Assembly: GCF_001904745.1 (NCBI RefSeq)
Contig: NZ_MRCD01000006.1
Span: 1 to 64,000, forward strand
DNA length: 64,000 bases
Direction: 5' to 3'
From: Calothrix sp. HK-06
GTDB taxonomy: Bacteria; Cyanobacteriota; Cyanobacteriia; Cyanobacteriales; Nostocaceae
Part shown: positions 45,811-53,010 of the stretch, piece after piece
How the letters are laid out: every line of letters begins with the position of its first letter
Position numbering within the stretch: the stretch's first letter is position 1
Made by a program: the position numbers and the translations under genes
The notes under the pieces: generated by a model
Database searches by the model: none
Seen by the model: only the letters and a program-made list of their open reading frames with translations
Told to the model about the DNA's origin: nothing

Positions 45811-46052
45811 ATTGTAATTTGATAATAACGGCGCCAAGCGACAAATGGAATATTTTAACTTAAAAAGTCTCATTCAACCAAACTTGTAGCTATATTTAAC
45901 ACTAACTAGCTGAGTTAAGATAAACCACCTTTAACGATAGCAATGATTGGCGATAAAGTGATAATTATAAGTTAGAGGCTCAGAAACACTTATAATTTGG
46001 CTGTCACATTGACAAGTACAGTAAAAAGTTGGATTGATACTTGGAGAGCAGA

Positions 46053-48698
46053 ATGCTGGATTCATACCGCAAACACGTCGAAGAAAGAGCAGCACTGGGA
46101 ATCCCCGCGCTGCCATTAGATGCAAAACAAACATCAGAACTGTGCGAACTACTTAAAAATCCACCTGCGGGTGAGGAACAGACATTACTGCATTTGTTAC
46201 GTGACCGAGTACCACCGGGTGTTGACCCTGCTGCTTATGTTAAAGCTGGTTTCCTAACGGGTATTGCCAAGGAAGAAATTATTAGTCCTTTAGTTTCCCC
46301 GATAGAAGCGGTTGAGTTATTGGGTACAATGATGGGCGGTTACAATGTACAATCGCTTATCGATTTGTTACAAGTCCCAACCGTTTCGTTATCTGAGTCT
46401 TCAGAAACTCCTTTAGTAATGGGGGGACAAGGTAAGGAACCTATCGCTGCATATGCTGCTGCGGCTTTGAGTAAGATATTGCTCGTATATGATGCATTCC
46501 ATGATGTTATCGAATTATCTAAAACAAATCCTTTTGCAAAGCGAGTTGTAGACTCTTGGGCAGAAGCGGAATGGTTTACTACCCGCGCGCAGTTACCAGA
46601 ATTTATTAACGTCACCGTCTTTAAAGTTCCTGGTGAAACCAATACTGATGATTTATCACCAGCACAACACGCTACAACTCGTCCCGATATTCCTTTACAT
46701 GCGTTGGCAATGTTGGAAACTCGGCAACCAGGAAGTTTAGAAACTATTGCCGAACTTAAGAAAAAGGGACACCCCATTGCTTACGTTGGAGATGTAGTAG
46801 GTACAGGTTCTTCACGGAAGTCAGCTATCAACTCAGTGTTATGGCATATTGGTCAAGATATTCCTTTTGTACCCAATAAACGCGCGGGTGGGTATGTACT
46901 TGGTGAAACTATTGCCCCTATTTTCTTTAATACCGCAGAAGATGCAGGCGCCTTACCTATCGAGTGCGATGTCACAAAGATGGAAACGGGAATGGTAATA
47001 ACTATATATCCTTATAAAGGAGAAATTACCAACGAAGCAGGCGAAGTTATTTCAACATTCCAATTAAGACCCGATACTATTTTAGATGAAGTACGCGCGG
47101 GTGGACGTATACCTTTACTTATCGGACGCACCTTAACAGACAAAACGTGCGTTGCTCTAGGTTTAGAACCAAGCAAATTATTTACCCGTCCTCAACAACC
47201 TGCTGACACAGGTAAAGGTTACACCTTGGCACAAAAAATAGTGGGTAAAGCTTGCGGTTTACCTGGAGTTCGTCCTGAGACATCATGCGAACCTATTATG
47301 ACAACCGTTGGTTCCCAAGATACTACAGGCCCAATGACGCGCGATGAACTTAAAGAACTTGCATGTCTAGGTTTCTCCGCTGACTTAGTAATGCAAAGCT
47401 TTTGCCATACTGCTGCATATCCCAAACCAGTAGATATCAAAACCCATAAAGAACTTCCTGACTTTATAGCTCAACGTGGAGGTGTAGCATTACGTCCCGG
47501 TGATGGAATTATCCACTCATGGTTAAACCGGATGTTACTACCCGACACAGTAGGAACAGGTGGAGACTCACATACACGCTTCCCTCTTGGTATCTCCTTC
47601 CCCGCAGGTTCTGGGTTAGTTGCATTTGCAGCAGCTTTGGGTGTAATGCCTTTAGATATGCCAGAGTCAGTATTAGTACGCTTCAAAGGAGAATTACAAC
47701 CAGGTGTTACATTACGCGATATTGTAAATGCAATTCCCTACGTAGCGATTCAAAAAGGTTTACTAACAGTCGAGAAGAAAAATAAGAAGAACATTTACGC
47801 TGGAAAGATAATGGAAATTGAAGGTTTGCCAGATTTAAAAGTCGAGCAAGCATTTGAACTAACCGACGCTTCCGCCGAACGTTCTTGTGCTGGTTGTACA
47901 ATCAAACTCAGCGTAGAAACTGTTTCCGAATATATCCGCTCGAACGTAGCACTGCTCAAAAACATGGTAGCGCGAGGTTACGGTGATGCAAGAACCATCA
48001 TGCGCCGTGTTGCCAAAATGGAAGAATGGTTAGCAAATCCGGTATTAATGGAAGCAGATGCAGATGCGGAATATGCGGAGATTATCGAGATTGACTTGAA
48101 CGAAATTAAAGAACCAATTGTAGCGGCGCCAAACGACCCTGATAACGTTAAATTACTATCAGAAGTAGCAGGCGACCCAGTACAAGAAGTATTCGTAGGT
48201 TCCTGTATGACCAATATTGGACATTACCGTGCTACTGCGAAGGTATTAGAAGGCGCCGGTCAAGTATCAGCAAGGTTATGGGTGGCGCCTCCCACACGGA
48301 TGGACGAAACTCAGTTAAAGAACGAAGGCGTTTACGATATTTTTGTAGCAGCAAACGCGCGGACAGAAATGCCAGGTTGTAGTTTGTGCATGGGGAACCA
48401 AGCGCGCGTTGAAGATGGAACTACAGTATTTTCAACTTCGACGAGAAACTTTAATAACCGCATGGGTAAAGATGCTCAGGTTTATTTAGGTTCTGCGGAG
48501 TTAGCTGCTGTATGCGCGCTGCTAGGTAGAATTCCTACAGTACAGGAGTATTCGGATATTGTAGGGACAAAGATTCAACCGTTTGCAGATAATTTGTACC
48601 GATATTTGAACTTTGACCAAATTACTGGGTTTGAAGATGAGGGAAGGGTGATAAGTAAGGAAGAGGAGGAGAAAATTTTGGAATTAAGTGTGAAGTAG
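46053..48698 (+). CDS. acnB: Aconitate hydratase B (bifunctional with 2-methylisocitrate dehydratase)
   Basis: 881 residues from [16 protein letters not shown], whose ATG follows GGAGAGC; the frame can start four codons earlier with TTG. AcnB order: HEAT-like domain (to about 160), then the swivel domain, then the three catalytic domains, with the [4Fe-4S] ligands in GSCMTN and [10 protein letters not shown] near the end. It interconverts citrate and isocitrate in the TCA cycle. A shortened, mutated copy of part of this gene occurs at 53499-53602. Confidence 0.96.
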
Positions 48699-48720
48699 TT
48701 TTTGGTTGTTGGGACATATA

Positions 48721-48750
48721 TCTTGTGGAACGGGCGTCCCCGCCCGTTTC
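48721..48750. repeat. Dispersed palindromic repeat
   Basis: TCTTGTGGAACGGGCGTCCCCGCCCGTTTC, with a perfect-looking hairpin core, 22 bases behind the acnB stop. Probably serves as the transcript-end hairpin, although no T-run follows. Confidence 0.6.
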
Positions 48751-48794
48751 AATTTTAAAGGGTTTGGAGGCGCCTACCTTACAAAATGCATAAT

Positions 48795-48920
48795 TTATTT
48801 TTTGGTTTTGCTTTTAATCTTTGATGCTTCATAACGTTTACTCGCTTCGTTCATAACCGCTTGAGGTTGCAAACCCGAAGCTAATAGCTTAAGTCCGTTT
48901 AAACGGGCTAAATGAAATAA
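48795..48920 (-). pseudogene. 3'-terminal remnant of an unidentified gene
   Basis: About 41 codons in an open frame without a start, HLARLNGLKLLASGLQPQAV and then KRYEASKIKSKTKK and a stop. The basic tail and codon use look coding, and the upstream end is cut by a stop. The family is not recognised. It lies between acnB and the reverse transcriptase gene. Confidence 0.3.
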
Positions 48921-48948
48921 AATTTAATACTAAGAAATAATATACTTT

Positions 48949-50601
48949 TTACTGTACAGTTAGTATTAATTTCAAACATTTTCCTACAACTTCACGATAT
49001 TCTATATACTCTTCTTTTGTTACTCCCCACGCAATTTTATCTGATATGCTAGGATGAGATACAGTATTTCTATTTCTTCTATCAAAAAGATTACGAATAG
49101 ATATACAAATTTCGTGAGGTATAGATTTAGAAGTTAAGTAATTAACAACATCGTCTGCTTCATATTTTGTCTTTTGCTTAATTGTATCAAAACACATACA
49201 TACCGCATGAATTTCATTTAATAAGTGATTTAATCCTACTGAATAAGAGTTGATTTTTTCATTAAATATACGTAACCGTGTTTGCTCTATCACATTGGAG
49301 TATTGTGTTATCAAAACAACTTCCTCATATGATAATTGAAAGTATCCTGGTTTTTCTGAGAATATAGAGATTTCCTCAAACGCATTGAAGATATGCTTAA
49401 AGCTATCGATAGTTTTGATTCTGCCAAATAAGTTAGTGTATTGAAATTCATGTTGACACAGTAATGTTAATATTAAATAAGCATCTCTAGTCGATAGTTT
49501 CATCTTTGAGTCCAAAAAATTTACGAATTCTTGTAAAACCTTCTTGCTTTTAGATATTATTAAGATAATCTCACGGGGCATAACATTAACTAAATCAAAG
49601 TTAAATTCATTGAATATAGCTTCAATTTGTGCTATGTTCTCTTCCTTTGCTAAAAGCTGATTTACAGATTTTTCGTAGATTTCTCTTAAAATATCTGCTT
49701 CAATCGTTCCATCTGAGTAAATGGAAAAGTCGATACTCGAATTTTTAAGCTTTTGGAGTTCATGAAAAATATTAGCTAATTTATTTTCTGGAGTTTCATC
49801 ATTTTCTTCGTCATTAAGATGATATTCAGGTGAAACTTTTTTCAAATCTTTTAATATAGTTTCTCTGTCAGATTTATTTCCAAGCCAATAAAGTTTTGTT
49901 TTTTTATTTAATTTAACTTTCAAATGTGAATATAGCAAATCTGAAATTTGTGAGGTTAATGAATATATAATTTTTTCTCTTTGCAATTGAATCGATTCAT
50001 TACAAAAATTCACAACTATGAATATATCATCAACATAGCGAATTATTGTATGCTCATTTATAAATTCTTTATATGTAAGTATTTCTGAGTCTATTAACAA
50101 ATCACTAAAAGTTAAATATAAGTAACTGATAAAGCTAGAAATTATATCATTATCAGCTTGCGGAATTCCACCTTGATTATGCGACAAATAACTATAAAAA
50201 AATTTTAAATTTTCTTTAGTCGATGTTGTAAAACTTAACTCTTCTTTAATACTTGGTTTAACAGATTTATCAAGATTATCAAGTAGAGTCGGAATGGAAA
50301 TATTATCAAAAAAATTTTCTATGTCAAGCTTAATTACAAGTTTATTGTCAGAATCATTAGTGATTTGTTTTCTAATTTGTTTCTTAAAATCTTTGTAGTA
50401 ATTTTTATAGAATGTAGTCTCATGTTTTACTGTTAAAGAATTTTGATTGAAGAGTAGATTTCCGCCATAGTAGCATTTTAAGCGTTTATTTTTAGCAGCA
50501 TAGGTTTGTAAAAAATCTTGGGATAGTTTGAGTAAGTAAAGACCTATAGCGTTTTCAGTTCTAATGAAGTACATCAGAGCGGGCAAGGATGCCCACTCCA
50601 C
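48949..50601 (-). CDS. AbiA-like defence reverse transcriptase, main part of a split gene, with C-terminal HEPN-type motif
   Basis: 550 residues. RT domain: LVIKLDIENFFDN with Asp93, GGIPQADNDIISSF near 145-157, and the catalytic YVDD (189-192) in IIRYVDDIFIVV. The C-terminal third ends with RNTVSH (511-516), an R-x4-H HEPN ribonuclease motif. The first nine residues (EWASLPAL) come from an inserted repeat; genuine sequence resumes at GLYLLKLSQ. Removing the 103-bp element at 50547-50649 joins it in frame to the 108-residue frame upstream, giving about 639 residues, near the length of AbiA (about 630). AbiA proteins stop phage infection. As it stands the gene is broken, though the RT part could still be made from an internal start. 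Confidence 0.72.
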   Translation of the reverse strand: MEWASLPALMYFIRTENAIGLYLLKLSQDFLQTYAAKNKRLKCYYGGNLLFNQNSLTVKHETTFYKNYYKDFKKQIRKQITNDSDNKLVIKLDIENFFDNISIPTLLDNLDKSVKPSIKEELSFTTSTKENLKFFYSYLSHNQGGIPQADNDIISSFISYLYLTFSDLLIDSEILTYKEFINEHTIIRYVDDIFIVVNFCNESIQLQREKIIYSLTSQISDLLYSHLKVKLNKKTKLYWLGNKSDRETILKDLKKVSPEYHLNDEENDETPENKLANIFHELQKLKNSSIDFSIYSDGTIEADILREIYEKSVNQLLAKEENIAQIEAIFNEFNFDLVNVMPREIILIISKSKKVLQEFVNFLDSKMKLSTRDAYLILTLLCQHEFQYTNLFGRIKTIDSFKHIFNAFEEISIFSEKPGYFQLSYEEVVLITQYSNVIEQTRLRIFNEKINSYSVGLNHLLNEIHAVCMCFDTIKQKTKYEADDVVNYLTSKSIPHEICISIRNLFDRRNRNTVSHPSISDKIAWGVTKEEYIEYREVVGKCLKLILTVQ

Positions 50602-50649
50602 AAGAGATACATTAATTTAGTGTGTACCTTACTTGACAAGGAACTGCTA
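50547..50649. mobile_element. 103-bp TA-flanked MITE inserted in the reverse transcriptase gene
   Basis: On the minus strand the element begins TAGCAGTTCC and ends GAAAACGCTA, with TA on both sides (50650-50651 and 50545-50546) as target duplication. Inside lies a copy of the TTGTGGAGTGGGCATCC-type repeat. Excision of element plus one TA restores the reading TCA ATA GGT CTT TAC, that is SIGLY, in frame. It carries no transposase. Confidence 0.72.
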
Positions 50650-50973
50650 TATTGAGTAATACAAAACTCTTAAAGGATAAGTAATAAATTTTTGATTGCG
50701 TAGACCTAGGTAAGATTTTGGAACAACATAATCATAAAAAGCGAACTCACGCTCTAGGGCATAAAAGAGAGCATTAGCAACCCGTTTATCAAAATATTCT
50801 TGAGTATTTACTATATTTGTCAAATGAGAAATACGTTTATAGTAAAACATACTAAGCGTCAAATAATGTTTATTTTTATCCATTTGATTAATTTGGAAAT
50901 CAAGTAATTTTTTTGCTTCTTGCCATAAAGAAAAATCTATAAAACTGAGTAGTGATAATGTGTTGTTTTTCAT
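50647..50973 (-). pseudogene. N-terminal part of the split AbiA-like reverse transcriptase
   Basis: 108 residues, starting MKNNTLSLLSFIDFSLW and ending ITYPLRVLYYSI, where the MITE brings a stop codon. In related RTs a region like VPKSYLGLRNQ followed by PLRVLYYS precedes the first RT block, so this is the missing front of the gene at 48949-50601. Its own ATG lies after an AT-rich upstream stretch of about 230 bases without other features. Confidence 0.65.
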
Positions 50974-51204
50974 GAGTATAAATCTTGACCTTATTGATTA
51001 GAATAATAGCAAAATTAAAAATATATAAAATCTTATTAGTTTTGGAATAAATTGATATATCATACCTTTGTTGCTAATTATCAAAGCAGATAAACAGGTT
51101 TAACTAAGTAAAATCTATAAAAACTGTTAATAAATATAGTATTAATAGTTGGATTACTTAATTAGTTATAATACAAGTGCAAGCGACTAAAGAAGTATGA
51201 CTCA

Positions 51205-53010
51205 TTATTTTTGGAAAAGCTTGGATACTGCCAGTAATTCTCGCCCTACTACTTCCACTGTAGACGAATCTTTTCTCGTAAAAACTTTATCACCAAGAAA
51301 TGAAACATCTTTTTGAGCAGGGATAGTAATCCTAATTACCGAATAACTTTTAGGCTTATATGAAATGGTATCGAATTTAGCTAGTACTTGAGTTTTAAGT
51401 GGTTCTGTTAAGGCAGAGTTTTGAATTGTATTAGTTATTAATTTAATATATTCCTCTATACTTTTATTTTGCAATTGTGCTTCTCTATCAATACCAACAA
51501 TATATCTTCCATTTATCTCAATTGGTGTAATTTTATCTAAAACTTCGATTCTGCGAGCATGTTTCTCACAGTCTGTGACTCCAATATGAATATACCCATC
51601 ACTATCTGACCCTAAATTGGCTATTCCACATATAGTTTCGGTAAGCCTTATCAGTAAGTCTTTATTTAACTCTCTTTTTGATGATAAATCAAGTAAGCCT
51701 TGCTTACATTCATATCTTGAAGTTTCTATACGAGAACGACGTAGGGAATTTTCTAAGTCAAGTACAAGTTCGGCACCATGTCCTAATGCAGAAGGTTCTT
51801 TTTTAGCAAAACAATCTTGAATTAAGCCTATAGTTCTGCTAATGTTTTTCTTTCGGTCTTCTGTTGTGGTATAATGGCTGCTTAAATCGAGTGCTTTTTG
51901 AAGCCCTCGTAAAGCTTTAGTAATACCATCTGGGTCGGCTGGAGAAAGTTCTTTACGGATAATTAGATCGAAAAATGCCATGAAAATAGTGTAAAAAGCT
52001 GTTCGGATGGGGTTATTACTAGATGGATTAACTATTCGTGATAAACGTTTTGTGTCTGAACTACAAGCTTCAATAGTTTCACGCATTACAGCAAATGTTT
52101 TAATAACATCATGAGTCAATTTCTTAGAACCGTAAGTAGCTAAAGCCGTTTCCAAAAGATTAAAATATTTACTATCTTTATCATACAAACTATCCAAACG
52201 CTCTGTACTTACAGGTAAAGGCTCGTTAAGCAAGATAGAAGCAGCAATATCAGCTACCATTTGTTCATCTTCGCTTTCTCGAAGTTGTTTGACTGTTAAG
52301 GCGCCTTGCTTACACCAAATAGTATCTTCGGCTTTAATTTTATAATTTTGGTTGCTTTTTTGTGAATCAATACTGATTTCAGGCATATTTGTAAGACGTA
52401 GTACTTTATCAGAAACATCACCACGTAATTCCATAGATATTGAGCGTACTAATTCTGCAAATGCCGTTGTTATGCCTGCTTGTCTTTTTTCTTGGCTACT
52501 TAGATGTTTGCCACTGGAATTGATGCGACCAAACACTTCTGTTATATCTTCTTCTCCCATTGCAGTATACACTGTCACTGCAAGTTGGTAGTCTAGTACA
52601 TCGGCACACTCTTTACCTGACAAAAGATTTATTTTTTGTTTGTCAATATCTTCTTTATTTATTTCAAGTTGAATAACTCCATCAGTTACTAATTGTTTAG
52701 CGTAAGAAAACTCATCAAGATTAAAATATTTATTATCAAAGCTAAAACAATTTTCTATAAAACTAAAAATTGCATTAAGACGTTGCATTCCGTCAATAAT
52801 TTCATATTTACCACTACCATATATTTGAGGACGCTCTGCAAACAAAATCAGTGGAATTGGATATCCTTTTAAAATGCTACTAATTAGCCTTTCTTTCTCT
52901 GTAACTGTCCAAACAAGCTTTCTTTGATACTTTCTGTTGACTAATAAACTGCCTGAACGGTAGAGTCGGTACGCTTCTGTAACACTCATCCCGCGAGGTG
53001 TAATACTCAT
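51205..53010 (-). CDS. DUF262 - Schlafen/AlbA_2 fusion protein, putative defence effector
   Basis: 601 residues. N-terminal DUF262 (ParB/Srx-like, as in GmrSD): VNRKYQRKLVWT near 25-36 and IIDGMQRLNAIFSF near 72-85, the DGQQR-type nucleotide site with Met in place of Gln. A helical middle (to about 410). The C-terminal part (about 420-600) looks like an AlbA_2/Schlafen domain: SRYECKQGLLDL (the E-x-K element), ICGIANLGSDSDGYIHIGV (ANxxGG-like region) and VIRITIPAQKDVSF. DUF262 proteins act in modified-DNA restriction and Schlafen domains cleave tRNA or bind nucleic acid, so a phage-defence role is inferred. It lies beside the broken reverse transcriptase, about 230 bases upstream of it, on the same strand. 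Confidence 0.75.
   Translation of the reverse strand: MSITPRGMSVTEAYRLYRSGSLLVNRKYQRKLVWTVTEKERLISSILKGYPIPLILFAERPQIYGSGKYEIIDGMQRLNAIFSFIENCFSFDNKYFNLDEFSYAKQLVTDGVIQLEINKEDIDKQKINLLSGKECADVLDYQLAVTVYTAMGEEDITEVFGRINSSGKHLSSQEKRQAGITTAFAELVRSISMELRGDVSDKVLRLTNMPEISIDSQKSNQNYKIKAEDTIWCKQGALTVKQLRESEDEQMVADIAASILLNEPLPVSTERLDSLYDKDSKYFNLLETALATYGSKKLTHDVIKTFAVMRETIEACSSDTKRLSRIVNPSSNNPIRTAFYTIFMAFFDLIIRKELSPADPDGITKALRGLQKALDLSSHYTTTEDRKKNISRTIGLIQDCFAKKEPSALGHGAELVLDLENSLRRSRIETSRYECKQGLLDLSSKRELNKDLLIRLTETICGIANLGSDSDGYIHIGVTDCEKHARRIEVLDKITPIEINGRYIVGIDREAQLQNKSIEEYIKLITNTIQNSALTEPLKTQVLAKFDTISYKPKSYSVIRITIPAQKDVSFLGDKVFTRKDSSTVEVVGRELLAVSKLFQK

Follow-up and report, generated by a model that had tools for sequence, protein, structure and literature searches.

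The locus lies in the window, by which we mean the whole stretch of 64,000 nucleotides of Calothrix sp. HK-06 analysed here; the genome of this source strain is known from one assembly, of 9.99 Mb, and the genera Calothrix and Dulcicalothrix are filamentous. Two open reading frames are listed on the minus strand, one of 108 amino acids (50647-50973) and one of 550 amino acids (48949-50601), and between them lies a 103-bp MITE-like element with TAGC...GCTA ends (50547-50649) that is bordered by TA on either side (50650-50651 and 50545-50546). The element reaches into both frames, since the TAG that stops the N-terminal frame (50647-50649) is formed by its first three bases on the minus strand and the first 18 codons of the 550-residue frame, which is listed from a GTG at 50601, are element sequence. 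The gene proper consists of an N-terminal piece of codons 1-108 (50650-50973, minus strand) and a C-terminal piece of 531 codons and the stop (48949-50544, minus strand), which carries the polymerase and HEPN motifs, giving 639 codons. Gene calling is expected to list an abiA locus interrupted in this manner as two proteins. Upstream, on the same strand, follows a gene for a 601-residue protein with a GmrSD_N (DUF262) domain (51205-53010), which precedes abiA also in Dulcicalothrix desertica PCC 7102 and Calothrix sp. PCC 7103, and downstream a convergent plus-strand gene (46041-48698), which we take to be aconitase B-like, is present in all three strains.

Both pieces belong to the AbiA family. 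When searched separately against the TIGR04499 profile (AbiA family abortive infection protein; curated cut-off 250 bits), the first piece matches profile positions 2-90 with 75 bits and the second positions 91-615 with 362 bits, and in the PADLOC AbiA profile they occupy positions 3-91 and 91-592, respectively. In profile coordinates the second piece thus continues where the first one ends, as is required of parts of a single gene, and the intact ortholog of PCC 7103 covers TIGR04499 positions 2-615 with 440 bits. The polymerase motif YVDD (50026-50037, minus strand) is part of an RYVDD sequence (50026-50040) in which R277, Y278, D280 and D281 are invariant among four aligned proteins and residue 279 is either V or T. 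At the C-terminus, R598 and H605 (49054-49077, minus strand) are kept in all four aligned cyanobacterial AbiA proteins with a spacing of R-x6-H, which falls within the R-x4-6-H pattern of HEPN domains at the motif level. AbiA is further characterised by a helical domain, a priming tyrosine, untemplated DNA synthesis and phage defence. The original prediction had drawn both the AbiA relationship and the intact YVDD site correctly, but its R-x4-H motif has to be replaced by R-x6-H, as the arginine at residue 600 on which it depends is a serine in two of the four proteins. Structure prediction of the intact PCC 7103 protein from five alignment rows yielded a mean pLDDT of only 35.9, and the domain layout is therefore taken from the sequence profiles and from the structure published for Lactococcus AbiA. 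Among solved structures the searches found either no match or, up to an E value of 10, eight matches, the best of them a weak one to the RNA-directed DNA polymerase 9n69 (E 1.5e-4) and none of them the AbiA entry.

The C-terminal piece is matched in three of seven genus genomes, namely those of the source strain, PCC 7102 and PCC 7103. Among 386 genomes sampled across the phylum 92 contain some match (E up to 0.001) and three, the source genome included, one above the family cut-off, as compared to one and none, respectively, of 14 control genomes. No second AbiA above the cut-off was found in the source genome among the three of 11 first-look candidates that were scored. Searches of plasmids, phages and viral contigs, one with an alignment that included the two short pieces and yielded a single pattern and another with an alignment free of them, found no AbiA relatives within a reach that is limited, as the plasmid search missed the lactococcal AbiA too.

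The relatives provide the empty site. A 2104-base query spanning the locus aligns to PCC 7103 with its bases 1-354 and 457-2103, leaving a net insertion of 105 bp in the source strain, and to PCC 7102 with its bases 12-354 and 457-2089, with an identical break point. The net difference of 105 bp is made up of the 103-bp element and 2 bp of duplicated TA, so that at the abiA locus comparison with the empty sites in two relatives reveals the target-site duplication directly. The PCC 7103 ortholog is a single frame of 646 amino acids (639 from the homologous ATG) that lacks the element, is flanked by the same two neighbours and is 97% identical to the N-terminal piece and 95% identical to the C-terminal frame, the element-coded residues of the latter being included. 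The peptide YYSIGLYLLKLSQ, which forms the junction of the rejoined gene, occurs naturally in both PCC 7103 and PCC 7102. The claim that the two frames are parts of one gene of about 639 codons is borne out by the adjoining profile stretches and by this uninterrupted ortholog, which is also the related strain without the element that had been called for as a check; neither of the two outcomes named as speaking against the claim, relatives with the same two frames but no MITE and a loss of similarity to reverse transcriptases across the junction, was found. That the gene can be restored in frame holds as well, yet as arithmetic: 105 bp correspond to 35 codons, but whereas the two gene pieces contain no stop, one TAG and two TAA are found across the locus, all three of which consequently sit in the insert, and so the length of the insert preserves the frame while reading halts at once. 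The abiA gene of PCC 7102 (L015:5683-7602) also lacks the element, but in the one assembly of this strain carries a premature in-frame stop at codon 142, which, with the reservation that goes with a single assembly, appears to be a loss independent of the MITE insertion.

The element belongs to a family that is present in all seven genus genomes searched, including the source genome. At least about 40 element matches per genome were scored, many of which span the central repeat only; 30 places were fetched, of which 22, the window copy among them, are near full length and eight partial ones were left out. These 22 copies were picked by similarity, a choice that favours conserved ends but not the flanking TA; TA borders 20 of them on either side, 20 start with TAGC and all 22 end with GCTA. 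The two inverted ends of a consensus built from 18 copies match each other at 19 of 30 positions. The element is short, present in many copies, bounded by inverted ends and devoid of a transposase, and the assignment as a MITE, which had been made from its TAGC/GCTA ends and TA flanks in the window, finds its confirmation in this multi-copy family with TA at both ends. Two further copies in the source genome match the window copy at 103 of 103 positions (G000:C228:9380-9482) and at 102 of 103 (C145); both sit between listed frames and not within one, and their flanks are unrelated to those in the window (23 and 19 of 60 positions, respectively). The perfectly identical copy makes the insertion into abiA look recent. 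In another genus genome (G005) the four copies fetched are identical at 101 to 103 of 103 positions and have different flanks, and these would appear to be another recent spread of the element. A short hairpin repeat inside the element (50581-50605, plus strand) also occurs without the element ends, at four more places in the window (18466, 35734, 44012 and 63898; no such match in shuffled sequence) and at further places in the genome. Rfam gave no match at gathering scores between positions 48000 and 53500.

A likely source of the enzyme can be proposed. TA targets are typical of the IS630/Tc1-mariner group. Scanning of 15 places with a DDE_3 domain in the genome for element-like ends singled out an insertion sequence (L077, G000:C48) that measures about 1.03 kb from end to end and whose two overlapping frames encode HTH_Tnp_IS630 and DDE_3 domains. 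Its ends agree with the element consensus at 20 and 21 of 30 positions. None of 100000 shuffles of these ends, with the first four bases kept, matched as well, a result that has to be read with L077 having been chosen as the best of the 15 places, and its opposite ends agree with the element ends nearly as well (18 and 19 of 30). Six of the 15 places were scored, and in the better orientation the five other candidates reach 35, 30, 24, 18 and 11 of 60 positions as compared to 41 of 60 for L077. The ends of L078 (35 of 60) and L085 (24 of 60) are also inverted and begin with CAGC or TAGC, and thus L077 is the best but not the sole candidate. Judged from these ends, which are similar but not identical to those of the element, and with the ends of L078 being related too, L077 would be the best candidate for the source of the transposase, and the comparison supports mobilisation of the element by an enzyme of the IS630 type.

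Until recently the gene appears to have been maintained. The ratio dN/dS between source strain and PCC 7103 is 0.085 for the first and 0.159 for the second piece, between source strain and PCC 7102 0.060 and 0.127, and between the abiA genes of PCC 7103 and PCC 7102 0.060 and 0.126; for the neighbours it is 0.082-0.100 (upstream gene) and 0.045-0.058 (downstream gene, codons 1-800). Hence purifying selection acted on abiA during most of the time over which these strains diverged, and in combination with the identical element copy this past selection suggests that the loss is recent. Against PCC 7103 the value of the larger piece, 0.159, is somewhat above those of the neighbours (0.085 and 0.058), which could reflect relaxed selection before the insertion. 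Across 46041-53010, dS between source strain and PCC 7103 is 0.085-0.144 in abiA and the GmrSD_N gene and 0.228 in codons 1-800 of the downstream gene; the lower values may be a sign that the defence stretch has recombined between strains.

Taken together, we consider it highly probable, at roughly nine in ten, that an AbiA-family reverse transcriptase gene has recently been inactivated by a 103-bp non-autonomous element, with a predicted loss of AbiA activity in the source strain. The element, most likely of the IS630/Tc1-mariner type and probably moved by an IS630-type transposase, entered a TA between codons 108 and 109 and doubled this target. Reading from the natural start now halts at the first codon of the element, after 108 residues, and what remains, which includes the polymerase and HEPN motifs, has lost its natural start; the interrupted locus is unlikely to yield a working protein. 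The anti-phage role of the intact protein is likewise presumed, by analogy with its family.

But could the interrupted gene still work, in that its N-terminal piece is produced separately from a C-terminal piece with a start inside the element and the two assemble? The C-terminal frame is open over 550 codons and contains the catalytic motifs, the element offers in-frame GTG (50601), TTG and ATG codons, and a GGAG nine bases before the TTG could serve as a ribosome site. These starts, however, fall within or next to a stable hairpin (RNA fold of -32.1 kcal/mol, z -3.64), and the cut falls in a stretch that is conserved among AbiA relatives (TYPxRxxYYxIGLYLLKLSQ). Moreover, Tyr27 near the N-terminus of Lactococcus AbiA is described as contacting DNA (PMC11077055). 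We therefore regard a functional split protein as improbable. It is more doubtful still that the element acts as a slow on/off switch that leaves abiA in some cells, such that a few defended filaments are kept and the majority is spared the cost of the system; if this were true, the independent stop in PCC 7102 would reflect the same cost. An artefact of assembly, in which the locus had become chimeric with the identical C228 copy, draws on the presence of just such a copy elsewhere in the assembly, but is hardly credible given that the flanks of the two copies differ (23 of 60) and that a TA duplication, fitting the 20 of 22 family copies with TA on both sides, is not expected from an artefact. 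Finally, that the two frames have always been separate, the split being ancestral or the similarity across the junction coincidental, can practically be dismissed in view of the uninterrupted ortholog in PCC 7103 and the continuous, element-free junction in PCC 7102.

The upstream GmrSD_N gene may be another defence gene; on visual inspection the C-terminal part of its protein is similar to an AlbA/Schlafen-type domain, a likeness with no Pfam match behind it. A two-gene system of abiA and GmrSD_N was considered and rejected: the genes are adjacent in the three strains of the clade, yet none of nine other full-length GmrSD_N relatives has AbiA nearby. Around each of the nine, 8-11.5 kb were fetched and searched by tblastn with three AbiA proteins and with an AbiA alignment profile, without a match in any, while L092 and L016, which served as positive controls and had contributed their own proteins to the queries, were matched. 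Conversely, no GmrSD_N relative lies within 16 kb of the two other cyanobacterial AbiA loci above the cut-off. We therefore claim no two-gene system. At one AbiA locus of another cyanobacterium (G314, L092:3258-6557) the gene directly before AbiA encodes 1099 amino acids and looks like an SNF2-type helicase by eye; the two may form a possible defence island.

The case is well supported and combines two familiar components, an AbiA gene and the MITE-like element by which it was broken. A mobile element disrupting a known kind of defence gene is an ordinary kind of event, and the locus is a clean natural example, with empty site and intact ortholog, of a defence-type gene being lost to a very small mobile element. 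Of the three strains in which the locus was found, two carry a broken abiA, through different events (the MITE and a stop codon), in keeping with the view that such systems are frequently gained and lost. A search of the literature on AbiA and abortive infection in cyanobacteria and on IS630, MITEs and pseudogenes found no title on this abiA locus or element, which does not imply that they are unpublished.

Among the known systems, the AbiA of Lactococcus acts against phage in E. coli in a manner that needs the polymerase, and its structure (8OZ7) and HEPN residues R581 and H588 have been described (PMC11077055). The source-strain protein resembles it in belonging to the same TIGR04499 and PADLOC family, in its RYVDD motif and in the C-terminal R-x6-H spacing (R581/H588 there, R598/H605 here; PMC11077055). 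It differs in that its gene is interrupted and in being too distant to be returned by searches of solved structures, and the two are likened through family and motifs, not by direct alignment. For the element, inactivation of genes by MITEs is known in cyanobacteria, the MITEs of the Anabaena mcy cluster being an example reviewed in PMC10969869. Like these and like Nezha it is short and non-autonomous and has inverted ends, a likeness by description and not by sequence (PMC10969869). The AbiA of PCC 7103 (L016), finally, is orthologous and shares both neighbours, and differs from that of the source strain in being uninterrupted.
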